Of a stretch of DNA of 64,000 nucleotides, positions 1,847-49,410 are shown piece after piece; within the stretch, counting starts at the first letter, position 1, and every line of letters starts with the position of its first letter. Source of the DNA: Cellulomonas humilata (lineage in GTDB: Bacteria; Actinomycetota; Actinomycetes; Actinomycetales; Cellulomonadaceae). The notes beneath the pieces were generated by a model. The model was not told the origin of the DNA. It saw only the letters and a program-made list of their open reading frames with translations, and did no database searches. The stretch covers positions 1 through 64,000 of the forward strand of contig NZ_JABMCI010000053.1 in NCBI RefSeq assembly GCF_013359775.1. Reading direction: 5' to 3'. The position numbers and the translations under genes were made by a program.

Positions 1847-2578
1847 TCAGACGGACGTCGGCCAGGTCTGGAGCCGCCCGCACATGCCGTACCGGCGGGG
1901 CATCGGAGCTGCCTGGCTGGCGGAGACCGATCCCCGGGCGAGGTGCTGCCCGACGCCCCGGATCAGGCCTTCGAGCGCCCCCGCCGTGGTCTCGGTCTCG
2001 GCGTAGACGGTGCGCGTCCACACGTCCTGCCACCGCGGCACCAGGGTCCGGACGATCCGTGTCGAGGCGTCGTAGAGAGGCTTCAGGGCTGCGGCCGCGC
2101 CGACCCGATCGACTGCCTCGCCGAGCTGGGCGTACCCCTCGAGCGCCAGATCCCGTCGGCGACGGGCCGCCGCGGCGATGTCGTCGTCGGACGCTCCGGC
2201 GCCGGGCAGGGTGGCGGCTGCGCGGTAGGCCGCGGGGTCGGCCAGCACGGAGGCGGGGAAGGTCAGGACGGCGTCCCCGGCTTCGGGCAGCCCCGCGTTC
2301 GACATGAGGACGAGAACCTCGAGGTCGCCGTCGTTCACAGCGCGGTGCACGACGCCGGGCCCGAACGAGACGATCGCGCCGGGCTGGAGCGGGTGCACGG
2401 CGAACCCGGCGGGCCCGAGGGTGTGCACGGAGCCGGAGCCGCCGAGCACGACGTACGCCTCCGACGACACGACGTGCAGGTGCGGCGACCCGCTGCCGGC
2501 GAGGCCGACCCCGTCGGGCGCGGGCCAGTCGTAGACGCGCAGGTTGCTGACCGAGACGCCCCCGGGAAGTCCGCTCAT
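1847..2578 (-). CDS. cupin domain protein
   Basis: The 243-residue product has an N-terminal cupin barrel. The metal-site-like motif LHVVSSEAYVVLGGSG is near residues 34-50, and a second motif with HPLQPGAIVSFGPGVVHRAVND falls near residues 62-82. The C-terminal 120 residues are largely helical and not recognised. The ATG at 2578 overlaps the stop of the upstream DUF6807 gene (ATGA), so the Gfo/Idh, DUF6807 and cupin genes form one translationally coupled operon. The role is inferred as sugar or sugar-derivative handling, for example an isomerase or a binding protein. Cupins are too diverse for a substrate call. Confidence 0.8.
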   Translation of the reverse strand: MSGLPGGVSVSNLRVYDWPAPDGVGLAGSGSPHLHVVSSEAYVVLGGSGSVHTLGPAGFAVHPLQPGAIVSFGPGVVHRAVNDGDLEVLVLMSNAGLPEAGDAVLTFPASVLADPAAYRAAATLPGAGASDDDIAAAARRRRDLALEGYAQLGEAVDRVGAAAALKPLYDASTRIVRTLVPRWQDVWTRTVYAETETTAGALEGLIRGVGQHLARGSVSASQAAPMPRRYGMCGRLQTWPTSV

Positions 2579-3489
2579 AGGGCCAGGATCCCGCTGCCGA
2601 GCGTGGCGAGCGAGGCGGCGGACGCGGGGTCGGCTGAGCCGTCGGCGATGACGACCGCGTACTGGAACCGGAGGGTGTCGCCGGGCGCGAACGGGACCTC
2701 GGTCGAGAAGAACGGTGCCGGGTTGAGGCAGCCGAACTGCTCGGTGCGGGCGAACCACTGCGGCGGGTGCGAGGGGTTGCCCGCACCGTCGACGATGACG
2801 ACGGTCGATGCTCCCCCGGTCTCGTCGTGCTGGCCGACGAACCCCATCCACGGTCCGCGCGTTCCGCGGATCTCCTCGCCACCGGAGAAGTCGGGGGCGA
2901 GCAGGGTGCCGCCGGTGAACGACCGAGGGCCGCGCCAGAACAGCCCGCCGTAGCCGGCGTTCTCGCGTCCGCGGGTGGTCGGTGAGCCGATGGTCAGGTC
3001 GGCGGACGACACGTTGGTCATGGTGGTCGCGAACGTGAGCACCCAGGCGTCGTCGCGACCCGTCGGGACGACGAACCCGAGCGACCGCGTCTCGTCGATG
3101 ACGTGCTCGCCGGCCTGCGTGTGCCAGGCGAGGGTGTGCGCGAGGTCGACCCGGTCGGCGCCCACCGACAGCGACGTGAGCGCGACGTGGTCCATCGACC
3201 CGTCGTTCTCCAGCTGCACGTACCCCTGCCCGTGCACGTAGGTGGGTCCGCCCCAGAAGTTGTGCTCGCCGACCACGGGCAGCGACCAGGCGATGCCCTT
3301 GTGCCACACGTGGTCGTGCGGCCGGAACCCGGTGACCAGGTCGCCGCCGCGCGTCCGGACGGGGTGCAGGTACGGGCGCGGGCTCTCGAGCTGCACGTCG
3401 GTGGGGACGTAGACGTACTGGGCCAGGGTGATCCCGTCGGCGACGACGTCGACCGCGCGGCCGATGCCGTGCAGGGCGGAGAGCGTCAT
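2575..3489 (-). CDS. DUF6807 (PmoA-like fold) protein
   Basis: The 304-residue protein belongs to the DUF6807 family (formerly the PmoA Pfam family). Conserved elements seen: PRPYLHPV near residue 38, the His-rich PHDHVWHKGI near 57-66, PVVGEHNFWGG near 71-81, ENAGYGGLFWRGP near 176-188, RGPWMGFVGQHD near 211 and PPQWFAR near 252. The molecular function of the family is not established; it often lies beside Gfo/Idh/MocA oxidoreductases, as here. Start and stop both overlap neighbours by ATGA, so it is cotranscribed with the oxidoreductase and the cupin. The same domain reappears in this window fused to a LacI repressor (20843-22795), and the signature motifs align one to one. Confidence 0.88.
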   Translation of the reverse strand: MTLSALHGIGRAVDVVADGITLAQYVYVPTDVQLESPRPYLHPVRTRGGDLVTGFRPHDHVWHKGIAWSLPVVGEHNFWGGPTYVHGQGYVQLENDGSMDHVALTSLSVGADRVDLAHTLAWHTQAGEHVIDETRSLGFVVPTGRDDAWVLTFATTMTNVSSADLTIGSPTTRGRENAGYGGLFWRGPRSFTGGTLLAPDFSGGEEIRGTRGPWMGFVGQHDETGGASTVVIVDGAGNPSHPPQWFARTEQFGCLNPAPFFSTEVPFAPGDTLRFQYAVVIADGSADPASAASLATLGSGILAL

Positions 3490-4949
3490 CGGGCGTCCTC
3501 GAGCGAGACGCCCAGGTCGAGGTCCGCGATCGTCACGGGCAGCCCCGTGACCAGCGACTGGTTCGCCGCGATGCCGACCGCCACGGCGCGCAGCCCGTCG
3601 AGGTACCCCGCGGGGCGGCCCAGCTCGTCGGCGGAGACCCGCAGGTGGCGTCGGAACACGTCCTTGAGCAGGATCGCGTCCCCGCCGCCGTGGCCGCCGA
3701 TGCCGTCGGGGATCGCGACCTCGGTGGCCCGCTCCCAGTGCCTCTGCACGAGCAGCCGCTCCCCCTCGGGGCGCAGCGCGTCCCCGACGTAGGTGGGGGT
3801 GGCCGACGGGTCGAGCAGCGCGTTGCCGTCCTCGTCGAGCTCGATCGCACCGCGCTCGACCACCTCGAGCTCCGCGCGGCCGGCGGTGCCGTTGACCGTG
3901 ACGCGGTACCCCTCCCAGGGGCTGTGCGCGTTCAGCGAGTAGGTCAGGGTGGCGCCGCGCCGGTAGTCGACCAGCAGCGCCATGTTGTCCTCGATGGTGA
4001 TGCCCGGGCCGAAGACGTCCTGGTCGCGCAGGTAGCCGTCGTGCTGCTCCGCGTCGAGGTAGAGGGACTTCAGGCGGGGGTCGTCGTTGAGGTCGAGCGT
4101 GAAGGGGTCGCCGACGACCCCGGTGCCGCGGGCCGGCCGGGCACCGAGCCCGCGGTCGGCGGCGTTGCGGTCGCCGTAGAACCGGAGCGCGCCGCGCGCG
4201 TACACGCGGGACGGGACGTCGCCGAGCCACCAGTTGACCAGGTCGAAGTGGTGGCTCGACTTGTGCACCAGGAGGCCGCCGGAGTTCCTCTTGTCCCGGT
4301 GCCAGCGGCGGAAGTAGTCGGCGCCGTGCACGGTGTCCAGCGCCCACTCGAAGTGCACCGACGTGACCTCGCCGATCTGTCCGGACGCGATCACCTGGCG
4401 CAGCGAGGAGTTCCGCGGGGCGTACCGGTAGTTGAAGGTCATGACGACGTCGCGGCCGGTCTCGCGGACCGCGCCCGTGATCCGGCGGCAGCCGGGGCGG
4501 TCGATGGTCAGCGGCTTCTCGACGACGACGTCCGCCCCCGCGGCGAGCGCCCGCGCGACGAGCTCCGCGTGGGCGTGGTCCGGAGCGGTCACGACGACGA
4601 CGTCCACCGACTGCTCGGCGATCATCTTCTCGAGCCCGTCGGGCGCGTAGGTGGGCAGGGACGCGGGCCGACCGAGCTCCTCGGAGACCACCGACTCGTA
4701 GTGCGCCATGCGGCCCGGGTTGGTGTCGAGGAGGGCGACCAACGTGGCGACGTCGGCGTGCTCGCCCGTGATCGCGCCGATGTACATCCCGGCGCGGTGC
4801 CCGGTGCCGACGACCGCGTACCGCAGCTGCTCACCGCCGGGCGCAGGGGCGAACTCGGGGATCACGCCGGGGCCGGCGGCCGTGCTGCTGCTCGATGCGG
4901 GACGGGGAGCGGTCGGGTTCTGGTCGGTCACGGGAGTCCTCGGTGTCAT
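3486..4949 (-). CDS. Gfo/Idh/MocA-family NAD(P)-dependent oxidoreductase
   Basis: The 487-residue protein has an N-terminal Rossmann fold beginning YAVVGTGHRAGMYIGAI and the family EKP motif (VVEKPLTIDRPG) that carries the catalytic lysine. The C-terminal alpha/beta domain includes the conserved GGLLVHKSSHHFDLVNWWLGD. At about 490 residues it is longer than typical 330-390-residue members. The ATG at 4949 was chosen because GAGG lies just upstream and the preceding 39 in-frame residues look non-coding; the first 40 residues are Pro/Ser/Thr rich. It is the first gene of the Gfo/Idh-DUF6807-cupin operon and is divergent from the GH51 gene, with a LacI-type palindrome between them. It probably oxidises or reduces a sugar or glycoside; the substrate is unknown. 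Confidence 0.88.
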   Translation of the reverse strand: MTPRTPVTDQNPTAPRPASSSSTAAGPGVIPEFAPAPGGEQLRYAVVGTGHRAGMYIGAITGEHADVATLVALLDTNPGRMAHYESVVSEELGRPASLPTYAPDGLEKMIAEQSVDVVVVTAPDHAHAELVARALAAGADVVVEKPLTIDRPGCRRITGAVRETGRDVVMTFNYRYAPRNSSLRQVIASGQIGEVTSVHFEWALDTVHGADYFRRWHRDKRNSGGLLVHKSSHHFDLVNWWLGDVPSRVYARGALRFYGDRNAADRGLGARPARGTGVVGDPFTLDLNDDPRLKSLYLDAEQHDGYLRDQDVFGPGITIEDNMALLVDYRRGATLTYSLNAHSPWEGYRVTVNGTAGRAELEVVERGAIELDEDGNALLDPSATPTYVGDALRPEGERLLVQRHWERATEVAIPDGIGGHGGGDAILLKDVFRRHLRVSADELGRPAGYLDGLRAVAVGIAANQSLVTGLPVTIADLDLGVSLEDAR

Positions 4950-4963
4950 CGTCGCCTCGTTGC

Positions 4964-4977
4964 GGAAAGCGTTGTCC
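4964..4977. promoter_or_regulatory. LacI-type operator GGAAAGCGTTGTCC
   Basis: This is an imperfect palindrome centred on CG, with the symmetric positions GGA.A.CG.T.TCC. It lies 15 bases upstream of the Gfo/Idh start and 116 bases upstream of the GH51 start, so it could control both divergent genes. Read on the other strand (GGACAACGCTTTCC) it resembles the sites at 11652-11665 and 19137-19150. Confidence 0.5.
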
Positions 4978-5092
4978 GCCAGTAGGTAGCCTAAGCCGTG
5001 GAGCCCGTCTCGCACAGGCCCGAGGGCCGACGGATCATGAACGAGGGTCCTCGACCACCACAGCACCGCGGCCCGACCGTCAGGAGAGAACC

Positions 5093-13283: not shown

Positions 13284-16200
13284 CTAGCGGGTGACCTTGA
13301 CCTTCACGTCCGGGCTGCTGGTCGACCCGAGCGCGTTCGACAGCTCCGCGCGGTAGACGTGCGTGCCGATCGCGCGGCCGTTCACCGTGGTGGTGGCCTT
13401 CTGCGCGTTCGTGCCGTTGGCGGTCAGGGACTGGGTGTCGATGAGCACCCCGTCCTCGTACAGCCGGTAGGTCGTCGCGTTGGTGCCCCACCACAGGTTG
13501 GTGGTGAGCGTGTACGACCCGTCGCCGTCCCAGTTGTCGTGGCTGAGCGCCGGGGTGCCCGGGTTGGCCGCGGTGACCTTGACGGTGAGCGGGGCGGTCG
13601 TCGTCGACCCGTGCTGGTTGGTCAGCACCGCGGTGTAGACGTACGTCCCGTTGGGCTTGCCGGCGAGCTGGAACGCCGCCGACTGCGCGGCCGGGGTGGC
13701 GTCGACGAGGTCGCGGGTGGCGATCGCCACGCCGTTCTCCAGCAGGGTCACGGTCTGGGCGTTCTGGCCCCACCACAGGGTCGAGGCGACCGTGAAGCTG
13801 CTGTCGTTGTCCCAGTTGTCGCTGGACAGGACGGCCTTGCCGGGCTTGGCGGTGGCCGGACCGGGCACCCGCTCACCGGGACCGGTGGACGGCCCGGTGT
13901 AGACGATGCTCGGCGCCGCCGGCATCGCCATGCCGTCACCGAGGAAGTACCCGGTGTGCGGCGGCTGGTTGTAGCCGGTGTTCTGCCACGCGACGCCCAG
14001 GCGGTACACCGGGTCGGACTGCAGGGTGCGCAGCCGGTGGTCGGTGAGGTCCACCGTGGTGGCGATCCGCAGGGCGGAGGAGTCGTCGAGACGCGTGACG
14101 ATCTCCTCGCGCCAGTCGCCGAACAGGTCGGCCTGCAGGGCGGGGGTGCCCTTGGTGCCGTTGTCGGAGAGAGTTCCGGTGGCCCGGTAGATCTCGTCCG
14201 ACGAGGCCGACGACGGATCCCACTTCGAGATCGTCGGGACCCCCGTGAGCGTCGTCGTGCTCCAGTCGTGGTCGGTGATCTCCCGCAGCAGGTCGCCGTC
14301 CCACCAGGTGAGGAAGTTCGCCGCGGGGATGGTGGTCCCCAGCAGCTCCCCGTCGGCCGCCCGCAGCTGACCCGCGCGCGAGTTCCACGTGCCGTCGGCC
14401 ACCACGGCCCACGACTCGGCGCCGGGGTGCGACGCGTCGATGTCGTCCGAGGCCCCGCGACCGGTGTCGGCCGTGGCCGGCATCGACCAGAGCACCTCCC
14501 CGGTGGCGGCGTCGCGGAACGTCGCGCCGATCCCCTTGCTGTGCGGTGCCTCCTCGTGCACCGCGAACACCTCGAGGCCGGGCCGGCCGGGGTCGAGGTC
14601 GCTGACGTGCAGCGCGTCCCCGTGCCCGAGCCCGGTGCCGTAGAGCACCGTGCCGTCGTCGTCGATGGTCATGGAGCCGAACACGATCTCGTCCTTCTGG
14701 TCCCCGTCGACGTCGGCCACCGACAGGTTGTGGTTGCCCTGGCCGGTGTACTGCGACCCGGCCTCGTTGGAGTCGAACGTCCAGCGCTTCGTCAGCGCCG
14801 AGCCGTCGAAGTCGTAGGCGACCAGGACGGTGCGCGTGTAGTAGCCGCGGCTGAAGATCACGCTCGGGTGCTCGCCGTCGAGGTAGGCGACTCCGGCGAG
14901 GAACCGGTCGACCCGGTTGCCGTAGGCGTCGCCCCAGGCGCCGACGTCCCCGCGCGGCGGGGTGTAGTCGATCGTGTCGACCGCCGCGCCCGTGGCACCG
15001 TGGAAGACCGTGAGGAACTCCGGCCCGGTGAGCACGTAGCCGCCACTGTTCCGGTAGTCCGCCCGCGCGTCACCGATCACGGCGCCGAGGCCGTCGACGG
15101 TCCCGTCCGCGGTCTTCAGGCTGACCTCGGCCTTCCCGTCCCCGTCCAGGTCGAACACCTGGAACTGCGTGTAGTGCGCGCCGGCCCGGATGTTGTGCCC
15201 CAGGTCGATCCGCCACAGCCGCGTGCCGTCCAGCTCGTAGGCGTCGACGTACACGTTGCCCGTGTACCCGGCCTGCGAGTTGTCCTTGCTGTTCGACGGG
15301 TCCCACTTCACGACGATCTCGTACTGGCCGTCGCCGTCGACGTCCCCGACCGAGGCGTCGTTGGCGTGGTACGTGTACGGCTGACCGTCCTTGGTGTACG
15401 CGTCCGCGGGCTTGTCCAGCGGCACGTCGAGGTGCTGGCTGTCCCACACGCGGAGCTCGGCGGTGGCCCAGCGCTCGATCCCGTCGACCACGGAGCTGAC
15501 CCGGTACACCGAGGTCGCCGTGCCGCCCGCGTCGAGCAGGTTGGTGCTGGCCTTCACCGGTCTGGTCGTGATGCGGGTGCCGTCCCGGTACACGTGGAAC
15601 GCGATCGAGTCGGGGTCCAGGCCCAGCTGACGCCAGCCGAGGTAGACGCCGCCGTCGGTCTGCACGGCCACCGGTGACCGGTCGAGCCGCTCGGCCTGCC
15701 GGGCCAGGGTGGTGACGGCCGGGGTGGTGAGCGTCTCCGAGGCAGCCGAGACGCCGCCCGCGTTCACCGAGGCCACGCGGTACGTGTACTCGATCGTGGT
15801 GAGCACGGTGGTGTCCGTGTAGGAGGGACCGGACGCGCGGCCGACGACGACGAACGAGCCGTCCCTGGCCTGCCGGTACACCTGGTAGAACAGCGCCCCG
15901 TCGACGGCGTCCCACGTGAACGTGACGTCGTTCTTGTGCACGGCGCCGAGCGTCAGGCCCGTCGGCACGGCGGCCGTCGGGACGTCCGGGTCGACCGTCG
16001 TCACGTCGAGCGTGTCCGTCGGCACCGACTCGAGCCCGCTCGGGTCGAGCGCCACCACGTGGTACTCGTACTCCAGGCCGACGTCGGGCGTGGTGTCGAC
16101 GAACGTCGTCGTGCTGACGTCACCGAGCGCGACCGGGGCGGACGCGCCCGCGGCCTTGCGGTAGACGCGGTAGCTGGCGGAGTCCGACGTGCCGGTCCAG

Positions 16201-19010
16201 CTGAGCGAGACGCTCACGCTCGACCCGTCGATGCTCAGGTCGTCGAGCGTGAGGGCGGACGGCGCCAGCAGCAGTGGCGTGATCTCGATGCCGTTCAGCC
16301 GGCTCGACGTCCCCGTCATGACCAGGTTCAGCTGGCCGTCGGTGACGAGCACCGGCTGGCTGACCTTCTCCGACACCGACCCCGCCCCCGCGTTCGAGGC
16401 GCCGAAGTCCTTGCCCTCGAGCTGCACGTTGGAGCGGCTGGTGCCGATCCAGTCGCCGTTGTACGTCTTCACGGCGTAGCTGCCGTCCGGCACGTCCACC
16501 GCGAACACGTGCTGGGTGCCCGGCAGCAGGAAGTCGCGCTGGAGGGCGTTCGGCGGGGGCGTGAAGTTGATGCCACGGTCTCGACCGCCCAGACCCGTCG
16601 GGTCCAGCCAGCCCCAGCCGATCTCGGGCGTGTACCGGGAGTTCTGGTTGACCTCGGTGTACCCCGGCATGAGCACGTTGCCGGCCAGCTGCACGTCGAA
16701 CTTGTACAGCGCGGCCTTCGTCGTGACGCGCACGGCGGCCGAGGGTGCCGACGGACCGCGACCGTTCACCGCGACCACCCGCAGGTCGTACGACGCGCCC
16801 TCCACGAGCCCGCCGACCGCGGCCTGCGGGAGCGTCGAGGTGGCGACGAGCGCGTAGGCGTCGTCCCCGTCCGCGGCGGCCTTGCGGTAGATGCGGTAGA
16901 TGTCCGCGCCCTCGCTCGCCGTCCAGGTGAGCTGCACGCCGGCGTTGGAGACGCTGCCGGCCGCGACCCCGGCCGGGGCGGCGGGCACCTCGGCGGGCGG
17001 CTCGACATCCACCACCTCGTCCGCGAGCGGGATCTGCAGGGACGCGACCTCCGTCGCGACCAGTCGCGCGAGCTGGATCGCCCCGTACTCCTGGAAGTGG
17101 GTGTCGTCGACCGTGCCCGTCGGCCGGTTCGGGTACACCCCGGCCGGGACGTGCAGGAACACGCTCGTCGACGCCTCGGGACCGATCTCGTCGAGGTACG
17201 CGCGGCTGGACGCCGACAGGTCGACCAGCGGCGTGCCGGTCTCGGTGGCCAGCGCCGTGGCCGCGGCGACGTACTCGGGGAACGAGACGTTGAACGTGCC
17301 CGTCGCCGCGTCGAAGCTGCGTCGCGACACCGGGGTGACGATCACCGGCTGCGCGCCGCGCTGGGTGGCGCCGTCGACGAACGTCCGCAGGTACTCCGCG
17401 TAGTCGGCGGGGGCGGCGAACCGGTCGTCGACCCCGTAGGTGGCGTCGTTGTGGCCGAACTGCACGAACAGGTAGTCGCCCGGCTTGACCTGGCGCAGCA
17501 CCTCGTCGAGCCGACCCTGGCTGATGAAGTTCTTCGACGAGCGCCCGCCGATCGCGCGGTTGTCCACCGCGACCCCGTCGGACAGGAACCGGCCGAGCAT
17601 CTGGCCCCAGCCGGCCTGCGGGACGTAGTCCGCGGTGTAGGTCTGCACGGTCGAGTCGCCCGTGAGCCAGACGGTCGGCTCGCTGCCGGGGGCCCGCGGG
17701 CTCTGCGCGGCGATCCGGAGCTGGTTGAGCTTGGGGGCGGTGCCGGAGAAGTCGAGGTTGAGCTGGCCGTCGACGACTGCGATGTCGAACGACATCTCGA
17801 GGAACTGGCCCGCGGCCTTGGCGGTCGCAGCCACCTTGGCCATCTGCTCGGCCGTGATCGCGACGTCGGTCGCCTCGGTGGCGTCGCCGGCGATCAGGCT
17901 GACCGTGTAGTCGCCGTCGGGCAGGTCGACGACGAGCTCGGTGTCGCCCACGCTCACGAAGTCGGAGCGCAGCGCGTCGGCTGTGCCACGGTCGGTGGCC
18001 GTGACCGCGCGGGTGTCGACGAAGCCGTACCTGGTGGTCGCGCTGTACGCGCTGGTGGCGTCGAGCCTCGTGGAACCGGGCGAGAGGGCTCCGCTGCCCA
18101 GGTCGAAGTCGAGGACGTCGGGGATGGTGGGCGCGGTCGGCAGGCTGCTCACCGCAGCGGCCGACGGCACGGACAGGCCGGCCGCGTCGATCGCCTGCAC
18201 GCGGTAGTAGCGCAGGGCCGAGGTGTCGACCGCGTCGGTGGCGAGCACCCCACGAGCGCCCGTCCGGGCGACCTCGGTGTACGCGCCGTCCACGGTGTCG
18301 GACCGCGACACCGCGTACCCGGTCGCACCGGCGACCTCGTTCCACCGGAGCGTCACGGCGGTCGGGGTCACGTGCGCCAGGCGCACCGACGTCGGGGCGG
18401 CGATCGTCGAGGTGCCGGGGTCCGGCTCCACGGGTGTGGTGCCGGTCTGCGCGACGACGATCGAGCTCACGTACCCGCCCGCGCCGCTGCCCGTGATGCC
18501 GACGGTGAGCTGGCCGTCGGCGACCGTGGCCGGCCACGTGCCGGAGACGGTCGCGGTCTTGGTGCTCAGCGAGCCGCCGCCCGCACCCTCGAGGGTCACC
18601 GTGGTCTTGGTGGAGCTGCTCCCCGCGAGCAGGTCGCCCGAGCGGACCGTCACGTCATAGGTGCCGTTGGGCACGTCGAGCACGAAGGTCCACGCCGTCG
18701 CGAGCACGAAGTCGCGGTCCGCCGGGTCCTCGGCGCCACGGTCCCGGGAGATCGGGGTGATGCCCTCGGCCGGCACGATGCCGAAGCCGGTCGCGACGGA
18801 GTATCGGGTCGCGTCGGTCACCTGCTGGTAGCCGTCGGCCACCGGGCTCGTCGCGGTGCCCATGTCGAACTTCCACGTGGTCACGGGATCGGCCGCCAGC
18901 GCGGGCAGGCCCCCCGTCGCGGTCAGCGCGAGAACGGCCGCGCCGGCCAGCATTGCCCGGGTCGTGCGTGGTGCCTGTCGTCCCTCGTCGTGCGCGCGCG
19001 TCGAGCGCAT
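13284..19010 (-). CDS. secreted multimodular rhamnogalacturonan acetylesterase (CE12) and rhamnogalacturonan lyase (PL11) fusion
   Basis: The 1908-residue protein deacetylates and cleaves rhamnogalacturonan I outside the cell. Modules in order: signal peptide 1-40; malectin-like 45-200; Fn3 205-290; malectin-like 300-435; CE12 GDSL esterase 440-650 with GDS near 450, GGRSSKNF, GHND near 518 and DDTH near 636; Fn3 673-760; malectin-like 765-915; two Fn3 917-1100; PL11 lyase 1102-1715, with repeated calcium-type DVDGDG motifs and QGNHNLS; two ChiA-N-like beta-sandwich repeats 1720-1908 (each LSxDNWDxDxSxT.....LWWG). The Bacillus homologues are separate YesT and YesW/X proteins. The ATG at 19010 follows AAAGGG; the preceding 62 frame residues lack coding character. 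Two LacI-type sites lie upstream. It is not coupled to a neighbour. Confidence 0.93.
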   Translation of the reverse strand: MRSTRAHDEGRQAPRTTRAMLAGAAVLALTATGGLPALAADPVTTWKFDMGTATSPVADGYQQVTDATRYSVATGFGIVPAEGITPISRDRGAEDPADRDFVLATAWTFVLDVPNGTYDVTVRSGDLLAGSSSTKTTVTLEGAGGGSLSTKTATVSGTWPATVADGQLTVGITGSGAGGYVSSIVVAQTGTTPVEPDPGTSTIAAPTSVRLAHVTPTAVTLRWNEVAGATGYAVSRSDTVDGAYTEVARTGARGVLATDAVDTSALRYYRVQAIDAAGLSVPSAAAVSSLPTAPTIPDVLDFDLGSGALSPGSTRLDATSAYSATTRYGFVDTRAVTATDRGTADALRSDFVSVGDTELVVDLPDGDYTVSLIAGDATEATDVAITAEQMAKVAATAKAAGQFLEMSFDIAVVDGQLNLDFSGTAPKLNQLRIAAQSPRAPGSEPTVWLTGDSTVQTYTADYVPQAGWGQMLGRFLSDGVAVDNRAIGGRSSKNFISQGRLDEVLRQVKPGDYLFVQFGHNDATYGVDDRFAAPADYAEYLRTFVDGATQRGAQPVIVTPVSRRSFDAATGTFNVSFPEYVAAATALATETGTPLVDLSASSRAYLDEIGPEASTSVFLHVPAGVYPNRPTGTVDDTHFQEYGAIQLARLVATEVASLQIPLADEVVDVEPPAEVPAAPAGVAAGSVSNAGVQLTWTASEGADIYRIYRKAAADGDDAYALVATSTLPQAAVGGLVEGASYDLRVVAVNGRGPSAPSAAVRVTTKAALYKFDVQLAGNVLMPGYTEVNQNSRYTPEIGWGWLDPTGLGGRDRGINFTPPPNALQRDFLLPGTQHVFAVDVPDGSYAVKTYNGDWIGTSRSNVQLEGKDFGASNAGAGSVSEKVSQPVLVTDGQLNLVMTGTSSRLNGIEITPLLLAPSALTLDDLSIDGSSVSVSLSWTGTSDSASYRVYRKAAGASAPVALGDVSTTTFVDTTPDVGLEYEYHVVALDPSGLESVPTDTLDVTTVDPDVPTAAVPTGLTLGAVHKNDVTFTWDAVDGALFYQVYRQARDGSFVVVGRASGPSYTDTTVLTTIEYTYRVASVNAGGVSAASETLTTPAVTTLARQAERLDRSPVAVQTDGGVYLGWRQLGLDPDSIAFHVYRDGTRITTRPVKASTNLLDAGGTATSVYRVSSVVDGIERWATAELRVWDSQHLDVPLDKPADAYTKDGQPYTYHANDASVGDVDGDGQYEIVVKWDPSNSKDNSQAGYTGNVYVDAYELDGTRLWRIDLGHNIRAGAHYTQFQVFDLDGDGKAEVSLKTADGTVDGLGAVIGDARADYRNSGGYVLTGPEFLTVFHGATGAAVDTIDYTPPRGDVGAWGDAYGNRVDRFLAGVAYLDGEHPSVIFSRGYYTRTVLVAYDFDGSALTKRWTFDSNEAGSQYTGQGNHNLSVADVDGDQKDEIVFGSMTIDDDGTVLYGTGLGHGDALHVSDLDPGRPGLEVFAVHEEAPHSKGIGATFRDAATGEVLWSMPATADTGRGASDDIDASHPGAESWAVVADGTWNSRAGQLRAADGELLGTTIPAANFLTWWDGDLLREITDHDWSTTTLTGVPTISKWDPSSASSDEIYRATGTLSDNGTKGTPALQADLFGDWREEIVTRLDDSSALRIATTVDLTDHRLRTLQSDPVYRLGVAWQNTGYNQPPHTGYFLGDGMAMPAAPSIVYTGPSTGPGERVPGPATAKPGKAVLSSDNWDNDSSFTVASTLWWGQNAQTVTLLENGVAIATRDLVDATPAAQSAAFQLAGKPNGTYVYTAVLTNQHGSTTTAPLTVKVTAANPGTPALSHDNWDGDGSYTLTTNLWWGTNATTYRLYEDGVLIDTQSLTANGTNAQKATTTVNGRAIGTHVYRAELSNALGSTSSPDVKVKVTR

Positions 19011-19176: not shown

Positions 19177-19683
19177 TCATGCCGATCCGGTATCACCGCT
19201 GATCAGGGGCGATGCGCCTCCAGTGAGGTCGCGCCGCATCACGAAGTTCGTCAGCGCGACGCCGCGCAAGACGGGGTGCTGCTCCAGCACGACCTCGAAC
19301 CCCTGCCGCTCGAAGAACGGCCGCGCGGTCAGGCTCGCGTGCGTGGTGAGCTCGGTGGCGCCGAGCGCCCGCGCCGTCTCCAGCACCCACCCGAACAGGG
19401 CCGACGCCACCCCGGTCCGCCCGACGTCCGGGTCGACGAAGAGCATGTCGACGTACCCCTTCTCGTCCACGTCGGTGAACCCGACCACCCGCCCGTCGAC
19501 CTCCGCGAGCTGCGTCCGGAGGGCCGCCCGCCGCGCCGACCAGCCCGCCACGTCGATCTCGTCCGACGCCCAGGCGGCGACCTGCTCCGGCGAGTAGTCG
19601 CGGCTCGCCGTGGTGCGGATCGCCCGCAGGAAGACCTCGAGCGTCGCGGCAGCGTCGGACTCGCGGAAGGGACGCAGGATCAC
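19177..19683 (-). CDS. GNAT-family N-acetyltransferase
   Basis: The 168-residue protein carries a full GNAT fold: MILRPFRESDAAATLEVFLRAI (beta1-alpha1), a central DEKGYVDMLFVDPDVGRTGVASALFGWVLE segment that contains the acetyl-CoA pyrophosphate loop (DVGRTGVASAL), and FFERQGFEVV near the end. It transfers an acetyl group to an unknown acceptor. The start is either GTG 19683 (used) or GTG 19689; both follow the stop of the Gfo/Idh gene within a few bases, so it is the third gene of the LacI-DUF6807 operon. No sugar-specific motif is visible. Confidence 0.8.
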   Translation of the reverse strand: MILRPFRESDAAATLEVFLRAIRTTASRDYSPEQVAAWASDEIDVAGWSARRAALRTQLAEVDGRVVGFTDVDEKGYVDMLFVDPDVGRTGVASALFGWVLETARALGATELTTHASLTARPFFERQGFEVVLEQHPVLRGVALTNFVMRRDLTGGASPLISGDTGSA

Positions 19684-19694
19684 GACCACCGAGC

Positions 19695-20846
19695 CTAGGC
19701 GCCGAACGGCGCCCCGAGCTCCGTGAACGTCGCGCCCTCGTCCGCCACCCGCGCGCACCAGTGCTCCACGTTCGCGACCACCGGGTGCCGCTCGTCGCCC
19801 TCGCCGCGCCACTCGACGAGCGCCTCCGGCACGGGCGCCGGGTCCGGCGCGGTCCGCACGGCCTCGAGGACGCGGAGGAACGCGCCGGTGTCCGCGACCG
19901 AGCACCGCAGCGTGACCGCCGGGTGGGTGCGCGCGATGAGCAGCTGCGTGAGCAGGTCCACCCGTCCGCAGCGGATCCGGCGCGTGCCACGCGGCGAGGT
20001 CACCTCGATCTCGTCGGTCTCGTAGAACAGGGTCGCGGTGCCCTGCGTGCCGCGGACGGTGACGCGTGCGGGCGAGCGCACGGGGGCGCACAGGGTCAGC
20101 CCCGCCGACACCCGCACACCGCCGCGCGTCTCGACGATCACCGCCGAGGTGTCGTCGGCCTCGATCGGGTTCGCACGGTGCAGGTCCACGCGCACGTCGG
20201 TCACGTCGTCCACCGTGCGCGCGCCGGCCACCAGCAGCGCGGTCGCGACGGCGTGCGCGAGGGGGTTGGTGACCACGCCGTCCACCACCTCGACGCCGTC
20301 CAGGGTGCGCCGGCCGGCCCAGCGGGCGCGCGCGAAGTACCCCGCACCGCGCACCCACGTGCCCACCGCGCCGACCCCGGTGATCTCCCCCAGCTCGCCC
20401 GTCGCGACGATCCGCGCGACCTCGTCCACCGCCCCGGACCCGAACGTCTGGAACCCCACCTGGCACAGCCGCCCGGTCTCCTCGACCACGGCCAGCAGCT
20501 CCGTGTGCTCGGCCAGCGAGGCGGTGGTCGGCTTCTCCAGGAGCACGTCGCAGCCGGCGCGCAGCGCGGCGGACGCCAGCGGGAGATGGGTGTGGATCGG
20601 CGTGGCGATGACGACGACGGCCGGGGGGTCGGCGAGCAGGAGGGCGTCGAGGTCGGGGTACCAGGGGCCGTCGACCGGCCGCGGGTCGACCAGGGCGGAG
20701 AGCGTGGCCAGGCCGCGTTCCTGCAGGTCGGCGACCTTGCGGACGTGCGTGGCGCCGTGGCCGTGCACGCCCACCACCGCGATCGTCGGCAGGTCCGTCG
20801 CCGGGTCGCTCACAGGCGTCGCCCCGCGGGGCACCTGCGTGGTCAT
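19695..20846 (-). CDS. Gfo/Idh/MocA-family oxidoreductase (second copy)
   Basis: The 383-residue protein has a Rossmann domain starting IAVVGVHGHGATHVRKVADL and the EKP motif in VLLEKPTTASLAEH. The C-terminal domain (WVRGAGYFARARWAGRRTLDGVEVVDGVVTNPLAHAV) carries the expected family His/Asp region. The glycine motif GVHGHG is slightly unusual compared with GxGxxG. Its ATG overlaps the stop of the LacI-DUF6807 gene (ATGA), so both are made together. This repeats the DUF6807 plus Gfo/Idh pairing seen at 2575-4949, although here the DUF6807 domain is part of a repressor. The substrate is unknown. Confidence 0.88.
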   Translation of the reverse strand: MTTQVPRGATPVSDPATDLPTIAVVGVHGHGATHVRKVADLQERGLATLSALVDPRPVDGPWYPDLDALLLADPPAVVVIATPIHTHLPLASAALRAGCDVLLEKPTTASLAEHTELLAVVEETGRLCQVGFQTFGSGAVDEVARIVATGELGEITGVGAVGTWVRGAGYFARARWAGRRTLDGVEVVDGVVTNPLAHAVATALLVAGARTVDDVTDVRVDLHRANPIEADDTSAVIVETRGGVRVSAGLTLCAPVRSPARVTVRGTQGTATLFYETDEIEVTSPRGTRRIRCGRVDLLTQLLIARTHPAVTLRCSVADTGAFLRVLEAVRTAPDPAPVPEALVEWRGEGDERHPVVANVEHWCARVADEGATFTELGAPFGA

Positions 20847-22795
20847 CCCCACGCCTGCGCGGCGAGGAGTCCCGCCTCGTCGGCGCCGAGCGCGCGGTCC
20901 ACCACGACCGCGGCGAGCCCGATGTCGAGCCGGCCGCCGTCGGGCACGTCGACCACCCGGTCCCACGCCAGGGCCGGCCCGGCACCCACGTACTCGGCGA
21001 CACGTGCGAACCACGGCCGCAGCACCGCGGGGTGCTGGACCAGCAGGACGGTCGTCGTCGCCCCCTCGCGGCGCTGCACGAACGCGAGCCACGGCGACAG
21101 GCTGCCGTGCACGGCCTCCTCGCCGACGAGCCCCTCGCCGAGCACCGTGGTGACGTCGGCCGACGGGAGGCGCCAGAAGATGCCGCCGTACCCGGCGCTC
21201 GGCCGGCCGTTGGTGCCGGGGCTCTCGATCCGCAGCGCCCCGTGGGAGGCGTGCAGCACGCTGGACCAGCGCAGGGTCCACCCGCGACCGTCCGCCAGGG
21301 GTGCTGCGCTCAGCCGCCGGTCCTCCGTCAGCAGGGACCGGTCGCGCTCGTCGCGCCACTCGATGTCGTCGACCAGCGTCGCGCCCGCGTCGGCCAGCCG
21401 CGCCCCGCCGCTGACCTGCCGGCCGTGGTTGGGCAGCAGGGTCGGGCCCTCGTCGCGCAGGAACGTGCGGCCGCCCCAGTAGTTGGTGCCGTTGACCACC
21501 GGCACCGCCATGGAGACGCCGTAGTGGTGGCGGTGGTCGACCGGGCTGGTCTCGGTCAGCGCCGTGCCCGCCGCCGAGTGCACCGGGTGCAGGTACGGGC
21601 GCGGGGCGTGCACGCGGGGCACCCGCTCCCCCGACTCGTAGCGGGCGAGCGGGACCGTCGACGCGTCCGCGGCCGTGCCGCTGAGCAGGAACGAGCCGAG
21701 GTCGGCGGCCCAGCCGGCCGCGGTGAGGTCAGGCACCTGCGGACCCACCGGGTCCGTCGCCGCGCGTCGGCCGAGCCGCGCCGCCGGGGGCACCGGGCCG
21801 CTGCTCGCGCGGATCGCGAGCACGGGGGTGATCAGCGGGGGCGTCGGGTCCAGGGCGTCGCCGCCGACGAGCGAGCGCAGGTGCGCCCAGGCCTGCCGGC
21901 CCAGCTCGGCCTGCGGCACGGTCGCGGTGGTCAGGGAGGGCGTCGCGAACCGCGCGAGCTCGATGTCGTCGAACCCCGTGATCGACACGTCGCCGGGCAC
22001 CGCGACGCCGAGCTCGTTCAGGCGGGCGAGGAGGCCGAACGCGACGAGGTCGTTGTAGGCGACGACGGCCGTGGCCCGGGAGGCGAGCACGTCCTGCGCG
22101 GCCGCATACCCGGAATCGACCGACGAGCCCGCCGGACGCTCGCTCAGCCGGACGTCCTCGCGGCGGGCGGCCGCGGCGCGCAGGGCGTCGAGCCGCGCAC
22201 CGTGCGAGGCACTGTCCGGCGGGCCTGCCAGGTAGAGCAGGTGCCGGTGGCCCAGGCCCGTGAGGTGCTCGACGATCTGGTCGATGCCGGCCGCGTAGTC
22301 GATGGCCAGGGTGGGGGTGGTGCCGTCGGCGGCACGGTTGACGACGACCACCGGGCGGATCTCGGGCAGCAGCGCGCGCAGCGTCGCCTCGGACATGCGC
22401 GGGGAGACCAGCACGAGGGCGTCGCAGCGCAGCCGGGCGTCGAGCGCGATCCGCTCCTCGTCGTCGGCGTGCTCGGCCGTGTCGGCCACGAGCACCCGGT
22501 ACCCCTCCTCGGCGGCGGCCGACGCGACCCCCCGCAGGACCTGCTGGAACATCGGGTTGGCCAGGTCGGGGACGACGACGGCGACGGTGTTGGTGCGTCC
22601 GAGCGACAGGCTCCGCGCGGTGTTGCTGGGCCGGTAGTGCAGCTGCTCGGCCACGTCACGGACGCGTGCGGCGAGCTCCGGGTCCACCGTGGCGCGGCCG
22701 TTCATCACCCGGCTCACGGTCGCCCGGGAGACGCCCGCGGCATGCGCGACCTCGGCGATGGTCGACGCGCTGCGCGTCCACCCGTTCTGCGTCAC
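20843..22795 (-). CDS. LacI-family repressor fused to a DUF6807 domain
   Basis: The 650-residue protein joins a complete LacI repressor (residues 1 to about 345) to a complete DUF6807 domain (about 355-650). The helix-turn-helix and hinge are clear: STIAEVAHAAGVSRATVSRVMNG, then YRPSNTARSLSLGRTNTVAVVVPD. The periplasmic-binding-like domain follows, with VSITGFDDIELARFATPSLTT. The C-terminal part carries the DUF6807 signatures PRPYLHPV, VDHRHHYGV, PVVNGTNYWGG, SAGYGGIFWRLP, SPWLAFV and RPWFARV, matching the free-standing protein at 2575-3489. LacI proteins normally end near 340 residues. It is divergent from the ABC importer at 22965, with two CCGG-centred palindromes between, so autoregulation and importer control are likely. 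The fused domain may process or sense the same ligand. Confidence 0.92.
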   Translation of the reverse strand: MTQNGWTRSASTIAEVAHAAGVSRATVSRVMNGRATVDPELAARVRDVAEQLHYRPSNTARSLSLGRTNTVAVVVPDLANPMFQQVLRGVASAAAEEGYRVLVADTAEHADDEERIALDARLRCDALVLVSPRMSEATLRALLPEIRPVVVVNRAADGTTPTLAIDYAAGIDQIVEHLTGLGHRHLLYLAGPPDSASHGARLDALRAAAARREDVRLSERPAGSSVDSGYAAAQDVLASRATAVVAYNDLVAFGLLARLNELGVAVPGDVSITGFDDIELARFATPSLTTATVPQAELGRQAWAHLRSLVGGDALDPTPPLITPVLAIRASSGPVPPAARLGRRAATDPVGPQVPDLTAAGWAADLGSFLLSGTAADASTVPLARYESGERVPRVHAPRPYLHPVHSAAGTALTETSPVDHRHHYGVSMAVPVVNGTNYWGGRTFLRDEGPTLLPNHGRQVSGGARLADAGATLVDDIEWRDERDRSLLTEDRRLSAAPLADGRGWTLRWSSVLHASHGALRIESPGTNGRPSAGYGGIFWRLPSADVTTVLGEGLVGEEAVHGSLSPWLAFVQRREGATTTVLLVQHPAVLRPWFARVAEYVGAGPALAWDRVVDVPDGGRLDIGLAAVVVDRALGADEAGLLAAQAWG

Positions 22796-22861: not shown

Positions 22862-22876
22862 GGGAAACCGGTTCCC
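22862..22876. promoter_or_regulatory. LacI-type operator GGGAAACCGGTTCCC
   Basis: A near-perfect palindrome around CCGG in the divergent promoter region, 67 bases from the start of the LacI-DUF6807 gene. Paired with the site at 22908-22923, centres about 46 bases apart, it could support looping. Confidence 0.65.
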
Positions 22877-22907: not shown

Positions 22908-22923
22908 GAGGAACCGGTTTCTC
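22908..22923. promoter_or_regulatory. LacI-type operator GAGGAACCGGTTTCTC
   Basis: The second CCGG-centred palindrome, 42 bases upstream of the importer start at 22965. It shares GAAACCGGTT with the site at 22862-22876 on one strand or the other. Confidence 0.65.
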
Positions 22924-22964: not shown

Positions 22965-23915
22965 ATGTCCGTAGTGACGGAGCTACGCCGGACCGCCAGG
23001 TCCGCCCGGGGCGAGAAGGGCACGCCCTCGCGGCGCAGCCTGCGCAACGGTGACGGGAAGGCGGCCGCGCTCTTCCTGCTGCCTTGGTTCCTCGGCCTCG
23101 GTCTGATCACCATCGGCCCGATGGTCGCGTCGGGCTACCTGTCCTTCACGGACTACGACCTGCTGCAGCCGCCGACCTGGATCGGGCTCGAGAACTACAC
23201 GCGGCTGTTCGAGGACCCCCGGCTCGCCAACTCGCTGCGCGTCACGTTCACGTACGTGTTCACCGCGGTGCCGCTGCAGCTCGCCGCGGCTCTGGGGCTC
23301 GCGCTGATGCTCGACCGGGGCCTGAAGGGTCTGCCGTTCTACCGGTCGGTCCTCTATCTGCCCTCGCTGCTCGGCGGTTCCGTCGCTGTCGCCATCCTGT
23401 GGCGGCAGGTGTTCGGCATCGACGGTCTGGTGAACCAGTTCCTGGCGCTGTTCGGCATCCAGGGCAAGGGCTGGGTGTCCGACCCGGAGACCGCGCTCTG
23501 GACCCTCGTCCTGCTGCACATCTGGACGTTCGGCGCTCCGATGATCATCTTCCTGGCCGGCCTGCGGCAGATCCCGGAGATGTACTACGAGGCCGCCGCG
23601 ATCGACGGGGCCGGCGCGGTGCGCAGGTTCCGCTCGATCACGCTGCCGCTGCTCACGCCGATCATCTTCTTCAACCTGGTGCTCCAGGTGATCGGGGCGT
23701 TCCAGAGCTTCACGCAGGCGTTCGTCGTCTCCGGCGGAACGGGCGGACCTGCCGACTCGACGATGTTCTACACGCTCTACCTCTACCAGAAGGGCTTCAC
23801 GGCCTTCGACATGGGGTACGCGTCCGCCATGGCGTGGTTGCTCGTCCTCATCGTCGCGGCGATGACCCTGATCAACTTCTTCGCCTCCAAGTTCTGGGTC
23901 TTCTACGATGACTGA
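22965..23915 (+). CDS. sugar ABC transporter permease (MalF type), second importer
   Basis: The 316-residue permease has six helices beginning ALFLLPWFLGLGLITIGPMVASGYL and the EAA loop MYYEAAAIDGAGAVRRFRSITLPLL near residue 205. Its 8-base overlap with the next permease (start 23908) shows coupling. It is the first gene of the second CUT1 importer, directly downstream of the two CCGG palindromes and divergent from the LacI-DUF6807 gene. No ATPase gene is present. The substrate is unknown; the regulator's DUF6807 domain and Gfo/Idh partner suggest a modified sugar. Confidence 0.93.
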   Translation: MSVVTELRRTARSARGEKGTPSRRSLRNGDGKAAALFLLPWFLGLGLITIGPMVASGYLSFTDYDLLQPPTWIGLENYTRLFEDPRLANSLRVTFTYVFTAVPLQLAAALGLALMLDRGLKGLPFYRSVLYLPSLLGGSVAVAILWRQVFGIDGLVNQFLALFGIQGKGWVSDPETALWTLVLLHIWTFGAPMIIFLAGLRQIPEMYYEAAAIDGAGAVRRFRSITLPLLTPIIFFNLVLQVIGAFQSFTQAFVVSGGTGGPADSTMFYTLYLYQKGFTAFDMGYASAMAWLLVLIVAAMTLINFFASKFWVFYDD

Positions 23916-24831
23916 GGTCCACGTGCGCCCCACGCCCACTGCCACCACGCTGTCGGCCCTCGCCGACGAGGTCCCCCCGGTGCAGCACCGCCGCTCCCCG
24001 TGGCCGGACCGCCGGCGCTCCGCGCTCAAGCACGCCGGGCTCATCGCGCTCTGCGTCCTGATGCTCTACCCGCTGATCTGGCTGCTGGTCAGCTCGTTCA
24101 AGCCGACCGAGCTGATCTTCCGGGACGTGTCGCTCATCCCGAGCGAGATCGACATGACCAACTACTCGGTGGGCTGGAACGCGCTGCAGTACCCCTTCGG
24201 GCGGTACCTGATGAACTCCGCGATCATCGTGCTCGGCTCACTGCTGGGGAACCTGGTGGCCTGCTCGATGGCGGCCTACGCGTTCGCCCGGCTGGAGTTC
24301 CGGGGACGCAAGCTGTGGTTCGCGGTGATGCTCATGTCGATCATGCTGCCGATCCACGTGATCATCGTCCCGCAGTACGTGCTGTTCTCGAAGCTCGACT
24401 GGATCAACACGTTCCTGCCGCTCATCGTGCCGAAGCTGCTGGCCACGGACGCCTTCTTCATCTTCCTCATGGTCCAGTTCTTCCGCGGGATCCCCAAGGA
24501 GCTCGACGAGGCCGCGCGTCTCGACGGCTGCGGGCACGGCCGCATCTACCTGCGGATCATGCTCCCGCTGTCGCTGCCCGCCCTGGCCACCACGGCGATC
24601 TTCACGTTCATCTGGACGTGGAACGACTTCTTCAGCCAGCTCATCTTCCTGATCCGGCCGGACATGTACACCGCTCCGGTAGCACTGCGCACCTTCATGG
24701 ACTCCACGGGCGCCAGCTCGTGGGGCCCGATGTTCGCCATGTCGATCGTCTCGCTCATCCCCGTCTTCCTCGCGTTCCTCTTCGGCCAGAAGTACCTGGT
24801 CAAGGGGATCGCGACGACGGGCATCAAGTAG
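23908..24831 (+). CDS. sugar ABC transporter permease (MalG type), second importer
   Basis: The 307-residue permease has six helices, MLYPLIWLLVSSFKP near the start, and the EAA loop ELDEAARLDGCGHGRIYLRIMLP near residue 200. The unusual cysteine in DGCGHG replaces the alanine seen in its paralogue at 8327. It overlaps the upstream permease by 8 bases and precedes the binding-protein gene by 61 bases. Gene order here is permease, permease, binding protein, the reverse of the first importer operon. Confidence 0.93.
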   Translation: MTEVHVRPTPTATTLSALADEVPPVQHRRSPWPDRRRSALKHAGLIALCVLMLYPLIWLLVSSFKPTELIFRDVSLIPSEIDMTNYSVGWNALQYPFGRYLMNSAIIVLGSLLGNLVACSMAAYAFARLEFRGRKLWFAVMLMSIMLPIHVIIVPQYVLFSKLDWINTFLPLIVPKLLATDAFFIFLMVQFFRGIPKELDEAARLDGCGHGRIYLRIMLPLSLPALATTAIFTFIWTWNDFFSQLIFLIRPDMYTAPVALRTFMDSTGASSWGPMFAMSIVSLIPVFLAFLFGQKYLVKGIATTGIK

Positions 24832-24892: not shown

Positions 24893-26203
24893 ATGCGACC
24901 CCGTCCGTCCTTCCGCGCAGCTGCCGTGCTTGCCGTCGCGGCCCTCGCGCTGACCGCCTGCGCGGGCTCGTCCGACGAGCCCGCCGCCACGCCCACCTCG
25001 TCCGGCCCGCCGGAGCCCGTCGAGATCCGCTTCTCCTGGTGGGGCTCCGACACCCGCCACGAGCTGACCCAGCAGGTGCTCGACAAGTTCACGGAGAAGT
25101 ACCCGCACATCACCGTGGTCCCGGACTACACCGACTGGAACAGCTACTTCGACAAGCTGGGCACCGCGGTCGCCGGCGGGGACGCACCCGACGTCATCAC
25201 GCAGGAGGAGCGGTTCCTCAACGAGTACGCCTCGCGCGGGGTGCTCGCCGACCTCAACGAGCTGGGCCTCGACACCTCGAAGATCGACGAGGGCGTCCTC
25301 CAGTCCGGCACCATCGACGACGCCCTCTACGGCGTGGCCACCGGCGTCAACGCGTACGCGATCGTCGCCGACCCGACCGCGTTCGAGGCGGCCGGCGTCG
25401 AGCTGCCCGACGACAAGACGTGGACCTGGGACGACTACGTCGAGATCGCCGACCAGATCTCCGCGGCGACCGGCAAGGCCGTGTACGGCGCGCAGGACTA
25501 CGGCTTCAACGAGCCCGGGTTCTCGATCTACGCCCGCCAGCGCGGTGAGTCGCTGTACACGGAGGACGGCAAGCTCGGGTACGACGACAAGACGATCGCC
25601 GAGTGGTGGCAGCACTCGCTCGACCTGCAGGAGGGTGGCGGCCAGCCCGACGCCGCCACCACGGTCGAGGTCGACGCCGGCGGACCGGAGCTGTCGCTCG
25701 TCGCCACCGGCAAGGGCGCCATGGCGTGGTTCTGGACCAACCAGCTGACCGCGATCACCAACGCGTCCGGCAAGGAGCTCAAGCTGCTCCGCGTCCCGGG
25801 CGAGTCGGAGGAGGACCGCACCGGCATGTACTTCAAGCCGGCCATGTTCTACTCCGTCTCCGCCAAGTCCGAGCACCCGGAGGAGTCCGCGCTGCTGATC
25901 GACTTCCTGCTCAACGACCCGATCGCCGGCGAGATCATCCTGTCCGACCGCGGTCTGCCGGCGAACACCGACGTCCGCGCCGCCGTGGAGGACAAGTTCT
26001 CCGCCACCGACAAGCAAGCCGCCGAGTTCCTCGCCGGTCTCGAGGGCGAGATCGTCGACGGCCCTGCGGTCCCGCCCGTCGGTGCCGGTCAGGTCGCCGA
26101 GATCACGCGCCGCATCAACCAGGAGGTCCTGTTCGGCCGGATGACCCCGGCCGACGCCGCCAAGCAGTACCGCCTCGAGGTCGAGTCGGCCATCGGCAGC
26201 TGA
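24893..26203 (+). CDS. extracellular sugar-binding lipoprotein, second importer
   Basis: The 436-residue solute-binding protein has a lipoprotein signal with lipobox LTAC (lipidated Cys at residue 23) followed by a Ser/Thr/Pro linker. The mature domain starts EIRFSWWGSDTRHELTQQVLDKF and has the bacterial family-1 solute-binding fold, including FNEPGFSIYARQRGESLY and MAWFWTNQLTAI. AAGGAGAACC immediately precedes the ATG. It lies last in its operon, 61 bases after the second permease, so it may also have its own expression signal. It shares the SWWG and FxExYP-type features with the other binding protein but the two are clearly divergent. Confidence 0.93.
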   Translation: MRPRPSFRAAAVLAVAALALTACAGSSDEPAATPTSSGPPEPVEIRFSWWGSDTRHELTQQVLDKFTEKYPHITVVPDYTDWNSYFDKLGTAVAGGDAPDVITQEERFLNEYASRGVLADLNELGLDTSKIDEGVLQSGTIDDALYGVATGVNAYAIVADPTAFEAAGVELPDDKTWTWDDYVEIADQISAATGKAVYGAQDYGFNEPGFSIYARQRGESLYTEDGKLGYDDKTIAEWWQHSLDLQEGGGQPDAATTVEVDAGGPELSLVATGKGAMAWFWTNQLTAITNASGKELKLLRVPGESEEDRTGMYFKPAMFYSVSAKSEHPEESALLIDFLLNDPIAGEIILSDRGLPANTDVRAAVEDKFSATDKQAAEFLAGLEGEIVDGPAVPPVGAGQVAEITRRINQEVLFGRMTPADAAKQYRLEVESAIGS

Positions 26204-44895: not shown

Positions 44896-44976
44896 CGCGT
44901 TCAGCGATCGCTTCACCGTACGGGATGACGGACACGCACGGACAGACCCCCACCACGACCCCGCGTGAGGACCACC

Positions 44977-46572: not shown

Positions 46573-46574
46573 GC

Positions 46575-47333: not shown

Positions 47334-47361
47334 CGCAGCAGACGACCACCTGGGAGCCGCC

Positions 47362-48699: not shown

Positions 48700-48703
48700 G
48701 CCG

Positions 48704-49384: not shown

Positions 49385-49410
49385 CGCGTCATCGTGGGGG
49401 TGCAGGACCG

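Follow-up and report, generated by a model that had tools for sequence, protein, structure and literature searches.

LacI-family repressors are defined by a helix-turn-helix (HTH) DNA-binding domain together with an effector-binding domain (PF00532, PF13377 or PF13407; PMC4052901, cited, like all papers named below, from part of its text). In that part of this LacI regulon survey the words fused and fusion are absent, and the KdgR, UxaR and ExuR groups that it describes combine an HTH with a periplasmic-binding-protein-like domain to control pectin and uronate genes. Here we analyzed a 64,000-nucleotide stretch of Cellulomonas humilata (contig NZ_JABMCI010000053.1, positions 1 to 64,000; hereafter the window), in which one gene joins a LacI repressor to a DUF6807 domain. 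Like the KdgR, UxaR and ExuR proteins, its product has both LacI domains and apparent pectin or uronate targets; unlike these two-domain proteins, it carries a third domain of about 270 residues from an enzyme family. We conclude that LacI repressors have a genuine and conserved variant with a third domain, tied to pectin use, and that its enzyme-family domain is probably live.

Transcription factors with an enzyme-fold domain as sensor are known from the MocR/GabR proteins, which couple a GntR DNA-binding domain to an aminotransferase-like sensor (PMC5320631). The LacI-DUF6807 chain would follow this principle with a DNA-binding domain of another family and another enzyme fold and, unlike MocR/GabR, keeps its LacI effector domain, which leaves two possible ligand inputs. 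Free-standing DUF6807 proteins (PF14100), present in several bacterial phyla and in archaea, resemble the fused copy in their nearly full-length domain, their conserved residues and their Gfo/Idh/MocA oxidoreductase (GFO) neighbor, but lack the DNA-binding part. One of them, Lac161_ORF9, probably shares an operon with two new beta-galactosidases (PMC5342196); PF14100 also occurs in PMC10291797, and the family is named in passing in PMC10971088. In the literature searched, which took in few subscription papers and no bioRxiv preprints, we found no function for DUF6807 and no report of a LacI-DUF6807 fusion; InterPro-type databases, unsearched, may list the architecture.

The fusion gene and its parts are arranged as follows.

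20843..22795, minus strand: LacI-DUF6807 fusion gene, 650 amino acids, GTG start, coordinates including the stop codon
22625..22762, minus strand: LacI HTH, residues 12-57 (PF00356)
21800..22591, minus strand: LacI effector-binding (periplasmic-binding-protein-like) domain, about residues 69-332 (PF00532 / PF13377)
21680..21793, minus strand: fusion linker, about residues 335-372, the least conserved part of the chain
20873..21655, minus strand: DUF6807 domain, residues 381-641 (PF14100), predicted by AF2 as a galactose-mutarotase-like beta-sandwich
21524..21538, minus strand: DHxxH motif, residues 420-424, inside the fused DUF6807 domain

The original prediction of a LacI regulator covalently joined to DUF6807 is borne out by a single open reading frame with Pfam matches to all three parts. 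The HTH scores 52.6 bits against a cut-off of 27 (PF00356, 4e-14), Peripla_BP_3 (PF13377) matches residues 175-332 at 1.3e-30, and the C-terminal part matches DUF6807 at 2.1e-59, its 201.8 bits exceeding a cut-off of 27 and its alignment covering positions 9-265 of the 270 in the model. The chain therefore holds the HTH and effector domain that define the LacI family and a nearly full-length DUF6807 domain above its gathering score. Relatives of the LacI part in the PDB include 3dbi (1.1e-38), and linker residues 336-350 are predicted to be disordered (pLDDT below 50).

A scan for the fusion with one genome per species gave 422 candidates, of which the best 80 represent 79 distinct loci; being the top-scoring loci of one scan, they show the fusion to be real and say nothing about its frequency or about any restriction to Actinobacteria. 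They span seven actinobacterial families and include Cellulomonas and Sediminihabitans, Promicromonosporaceae, Demequina, Sanguibacter, Kribbella, Actinophytocola and Agromyces. The chain is unbroken and in a single frame in 76 of the 79 loci; two of the others are cut by contig ends (L014, L075) and the third is out of frame near its C-terminus (L072). Because 76 loci from public genomes keep the same open frame, and because the fusion label requires a single change in the domain tree described below, we rule out a frameshift or a sequencing or assembly error that joined two genes, the probability of which we regard as negligible. A search of plasmids for the fusion gave no match at E up to 1e-60.

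The fused domain retains 18 of the 20 positions that are conserved in free DUF6807 copies. Across 49 DUF6807 rows (alignment A1, comprising 49 of 50 chosen domains with the short L104 omitted; A3 omits four more, L114-L117), D420, H421, H424, W440, W480 and W569 are invariant, the first three being identical in all fused and free rows compared, and E491, Y536, R542 and R598 are conserved at 90% or above. Of 12 residues checked, ten are the same in all 79 fused rows (the window and 78 loci), and the remaining two in 78. In ten Cellulomonas pairs, dN/dS is 0.10-0.33 for DUF6807, 0.04-0.25 for the LacI core and 0.12-0.70 for the linker. Over 800 random pairs, drawn from the fusions without L014, L072 and L075, the HTH has a mean identity of 0.72, the LacI core one of 0.63 and DUF6807 one of 0.61, with 0.30 in the linker. 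By its dN/dS, the fused domain is under purifying selection. One could instead picture it as a functionless, decaying remnant, given that its dN/dS lies somewhat above that of the LacI core and that five of six Kribbella genomes examined have a free DUF6807 as well. A dN/dS far below 1, intact conserved residues and a mean identity close to that of the LacI core make this very improbable, and we rejected the simple-remnant reading on dN/dS and the intact conserved residues.

The AF2 model of the fused DUF6807 part is a beta-sandwich with a pLDDT of 97, galactose-mutarotase-like by its structural matches, of which those quoted are nearly equal in Z; families beyond those listed may fit too. Within this fold class, aldose 1-epimerase uses a catalytic His/His/Glu set. 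Plasmid annotations name DUF6807 proteins 'PmoA family protein' or 'DUF6807 family protein'. We dropped 'PmoA / methane oxygenase' as a function: PF14100 was the only Pfam match over this part, the predicted fold is a beta-sandwich, and neither the Pfam search nor the AF2 model places the domain among the membrane-bound methane/ammonia monooxygenases.

The fusion gene is flanked by an oxidoreductase gene on its own strand and by divergent transporter genes.

19695..20846, minus strand: Gfo/Idh/MocA oxidoreductase (GFO), 383 amino acids, its ATG overlapping the fusion stop codon (ATGA)
19177..19689, minus strand: GNAT acetyltransferase, the gene after GFO
22965..23915, plus strand: divergent ATP-binding cassette (ABC) sugar permease A (PF00528)
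23908..24831, plus strand: ABC sugar permease B (PF00528)
24893..26203, plus strand: ABC solute-binding protein (PF13416 / PF01547)

Counting the window, GFO lies directly 3' of the fusion in 57 of the 76 loci with enough sequence (L004 being scored as having no GFO downstream, despite a match there to an out-of-frame GFO query), and the transporter is divergent from the fusion in 53 of 77. The latter count was 38 of 77 under a strict divergent-permease test, which we widened to accept a larger gap and permease B because called gene starts vary. The GNAT acetyltransferase is probably outside the core system, since its gene family is present in just 6 loci. In a sample of 36 genomes of the genus, GFO orthologues (E up to 1e-40) occur in 12 and the fusion in exactly the same 12; one further genome, about 89% complete, has a free DUF6807 only. 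In a sample of the order, genome G048 has DUF6807 without a matching GFO. Elsewhere, GFO lies just upstream of a free DUF6807 in Paenarthrobacter, in Granulicella (Acidobacteriota) and in the haloarchaeon Halomontanus. In genome G310 a GFO homologue and DUF6807 form a single chain (L131:6138-8036, plus strand), an independent fusion that supports the pairing. DUF6807 has a third fusion partner in genome G466, where GH43 and DUF6807 form one 801-residue chain (L203:1576-3978, minus strand) with a one-mismatch copy of the operator described below 22 bases upstream. Gene order, co-occurrence and fusion identify DUF6807 as the putative partner of the Gfo/Idh/MocA oxidoreductase.

The GFO-initiated 3-keto-glycoside pathways for levoglucosan (PMC10066097) and for O- and C-glycosides (PMC10628242) share with this locus a GFO, a sugar ABC transporter and, as we would expect here, a second enzyme that acts on the oxidized sugar. 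In the described pathways the second enzymes are of the sugar phosphate isomerase/epimerase type (PF01261) or are C-glycoside eliminases; neither kind of gene turned up next to the window's fusion, and DUF6807 occupies that position instead. Against glycoside- and levoglucosan-dehydrogenase models, the operon's GFO scores far below the cut-offs, and its match to a glucuronide-3-dehydrogenase in the PDB (2.2e-6) ranks behind unnamed oxidoreductases. Because these dehydrogenase matches are so weak, we assign no 3-keto-type elimination to the GFO/DUF6807 pair. Uronate genes occur near some related loci, namely galactarate/altronate dehydratase, mannonate dehydratase and, in L138, KdgD.

A tree of 63 DUF6807 domains, built with a quick method, was used to place the fused copies. 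Of the fused rows, 29 were chosen by hand and used together with L134 and L135; L116 was filtered out, and L165 and L166 were left out as duplicates of L077 and L078. The 31 LacI-fused rows require one label change (support 73) and cluster, with support of 97, with two free domains, from genomes G310 and G369. In the former (L137), LacI is a gene of its own that overlaps the free DUF6807 gene at its start; in the latter (L138), LacI adjoins GFO and DUF6807 is nearby. These two LacI proteins are the nearest unfused relatives of the fusion's LacI part (49-50%, the next at 43%) in a ranking of 33 candidates shorter than 430 residues from the called genes of fetched loci, the top row of which, L075, is a truncated fusion. 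GFO, DUF6807 and another LacI stand as three consecutive genes, divergent from a related transporter, in L132, L133 and L218. Natural before-and-after states of the gene fusion thus exist.

The window contains a second, free-standing DUF6807 gene.

2575..3489, minus strand: free-standing DUF6807 paralogue (PF14100), of another clade and not in the fusion operon
3486..5066, minus strand: Gfo/Idh/MocA oxidoreductase next to the free DUF6807 gene, with an uncertain start, given as context
1850..2578, minus strand: cupin protein beside the free DUF6807 (PF07883), given as context

This copy matches PF14100 at 3.1e-79 and is 32% identical to the fused domain over 267 columns (E 4e-35). The motif-by-motif alignment proposed earlier for the two copies holds, except that the motif given as PWFAR reads QWFAR in the free one. 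Because it falls in a different DUF6807 clade, the free copy is a paralogue and not the fusion's nearest free relative.

Even palindromic operators with a central CG are typical of uronate and pectin LacI repressors. Between the fusion gene and the divergent permease gene, computation yielded two candidate palindromes.

22864..22875: candidate operator 1, GAAACCGGTTCC, with 1 mismatch to the palindrome GAAACCGGTTTC
22910..22921: candidate operator 2, GGAACCGGTTTC, 46 bases from operator 1

The window is otherwise free of sites at two or fewer mismatches to GAAACCGGTTTC. By itself this count is not significant, because 0.71 sites are expected by chance and two are reached in 13 of 100 shuffles. 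Of 79 upstream 400-base regions, 70 hold one or more sites and 59 hold two or more, and the remainder of the same loci holds 68 sites in 1.27 Mb, or 0.021 per 400 bases; these counts come from a consensus scan instead of a strict palindrome scan, use related, non-independent loci and omit L014. In the 52 regions with exactly two sites, the spacing is 34-35 bases in 33, 45-46 bases in 17 and 57 bases in 2. The two main classes differ by about one helical turn, a pattern that suggests cooperative binding on one face of the DNA. Such doublets would also suit a DUF6807 domain that acts as a structural or oligomerization module, replacing the LacI tetramerization helix and aiding the bridging of two operators. 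A scaffold, however, has no need of the DHxxH, E, R and W residues that every or almost every fused row preserves and that the free copies share, and we consider this role improbable.

Genome-wide, four sites occur at one mismatch or fewer: the two at the fusion promoter and one each before two pectate lyase genes, at distances of 30 and 149 bases (PF00544 at 2.3e-42 and 2e-40), in a genome whose PF00544 genes number four. Nine further fusion genomes, one of which (G476) is very near this genome, have distal sites that merge, with close doublets joined, into 29 promoters. Nineteen of these face a pectin-type gene: 11 a PF00544 pectate lyase by Pfam, two a GH43 gene (one by Pfam, one by blast), one a GDSL esterase and five a beta-helix protein of 1236-1253 residues whose match lies above the cut-off in three cases and just below it in two. 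In two of the 19 (L199, L201) the gene start is at least 303 bases from the site. Another five promoters face permease, solute-binding, GFO or hydrolase genes, with one site just inside a called gene. Since the other genomic sites precede pectate lyases, the fusion is probably a pectin/galacturonan repressor; the 'plant sugars' first suggested for ligand assays can be narrowed accordingly. Elsewhere in the window are genes for a rhamnogalacturonan lyase, an arabinofuranosidase and a pectinesterase/pectate lyase. Taken together, the fusions, the pairing with GFO and the regulon defined by the operators assign DUF6807 to pectin/galacturonan use.

The five beta-helix genes (L198:4054-7788, L192, L200, L212, L214) each have a perfect operator 19-53 bases upstream. 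Their Pel9A-like match is below the cut-off in two of the five, and the protein is perhaps an unrecognized type of pectin lyase.

How the fused domain relates to GFO differs between lineages. Among the six Kribbella genomes examined, five have the fusion at a locus separate from the one that holds the transporter, a GFO and a free DUF6807; the sixth has GFO without a free DUF6807. The Kribbella GFO proteins are 54-56% identical, and an operator-like site lies upstream in all six GFO loci, with one mismatch or fewer in three and two mismatches, a level that can be chance, in the other three. Genome G047 resembles the Kribbella pattern, with no operator site at its GFO locus. In Sanguibacter (G469, L217:5640-9875, minus strand) fusion, free DUF6807 and GFO stand in tandem, 3' of a GH43-like gene. 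The fused domain is intact in both the Sanguibacter and the Kribbella loci. Its integrity despite a separate DUF6807 beside GFO argues that it is kept for the regulator's sake, and hence for sensing; we infer that its retention goes beyond simple enzyme tethering. In 8 of 29 fusion genomes (L013 lay outside the genome-wide searches), the fused copy is the sole DUF6807, so that any task DUF6807 performs for GFO must fall to it in these genomes. Enzyme activity of the fused domain is likely retained, and most likely the domain both acts and reports.

These arrangements also bear on a plain Rosetta-stone fusion, in which DUF6807 would be only GFO's enzyme partner, joined to the repressor for co-expression or dosage, and the LacI effector domain would do all the sensing. 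Such a fusion would explain why LacI and DUF6807 are adjacent unfused genes in L137, why GFO is the next gene in most loci, why 8 of 29 genomes have the fused copy as their sole DUF6807, and why chains that join DUF6807 to a GFO homologue or to GH43 exist as well. It sits less well with Sanguibacter, G047 and the five Kribbella genomes, which keep the fused domain though another DUF6807 stands beside GFO, and a low-abundance repressor would be an odd carrier for a metabolic enzyme. We regard this explanation as possible but doubtful.

The reading we prefer, to which we give about an even chance of being correct, is a LacI repressor that controls a pectin/galacturonan regulon and has, in DUF6807, a second domain for handling ligands, through which it would report on an intermediate of the step shared by the oxidoreductase and DUF6807. 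Pectin fragments would enter through the divergent ABC transporter, GFO would oxidize or reduce a uronide, and the DUF6807 domain would bind, and probably convert, the sugar made by GFO. The ligand-filled DUF6807 domain, either in addition to the classical LacI pocket or in its place, would then loosen the repressor from its operator doublet, so that the repressor would respond to flux in the pathway it controls. The fusion would probably supply the enzyme activity too wherever a lineage has no other DUF6807. If correct, this describes two ligand inputs to a single LacI repressor, one of them derived from an enzyme of its own pathway. The earlier suggestion that the regulator binds or converts the ligand of its operon is in keeping with the conserved residues, the partner enzyme in the next gene and the apparent uptake and pectin targets.

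Several observations weigh against this reading of the domain as a sensor. The LacI part keeps a full effector domain that could do all the sensing, and both the eight genomes with the fused copy as sole DUF6807 and the fusion of DUF6807 to two enzymes are what a plain enzyme tether would predict. A PDB sequence search with DUF6807 found no solved relative at E up to 10, Foldseek TM-scores of its model reach at most 0.48, and the structural matches share the fold, not a proven function. In the order sample, G045 has a GFO relative without DUF6807. On the DNA side, 9 of the 79 upstream regions, including three Agromyces loci, have no site at two or fewer mismatches, 5 of the 29 distal promoters face no fitting gene, and other LacI proteins in the fusion genomes may share this operator.

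In trigger enzymes such as PutA or BirA, one chain both catalyzes and regulates. The LacI-DUF6807 chain may do the same, although catalysis by its DUF6807 domain, which keeps the conserved residues, is putative. In a LacI-family trigger enzyme of this kind, DUF6807 would work with GFO, perhaps bound to it, and passage of the substrate would release the repressor from DNA. The rate of catalysis along the pectin pathway, and not just a ligand in the classical LacI pocket, would then set transcription. We consider it unlikely.

Three further features of the window were noted. A 1889-residue protein (13287-18953, minus strand) combines a GDSL esterase, a fibronectin domain and a family-11 rhamnogalacturonan lyase. 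A second LacI repressor, of the ordinary type, lies near the transporter (26412-27545, minus strand). Finally, a cluster on the plus strand (44965-54411) encodes a purine/allantoin-type permease, a hydantoin racemase, an amidohydrolase, amidases, a class-V aminotransferase and an M20 peptidase, and resembles purine or ureide catabolism.

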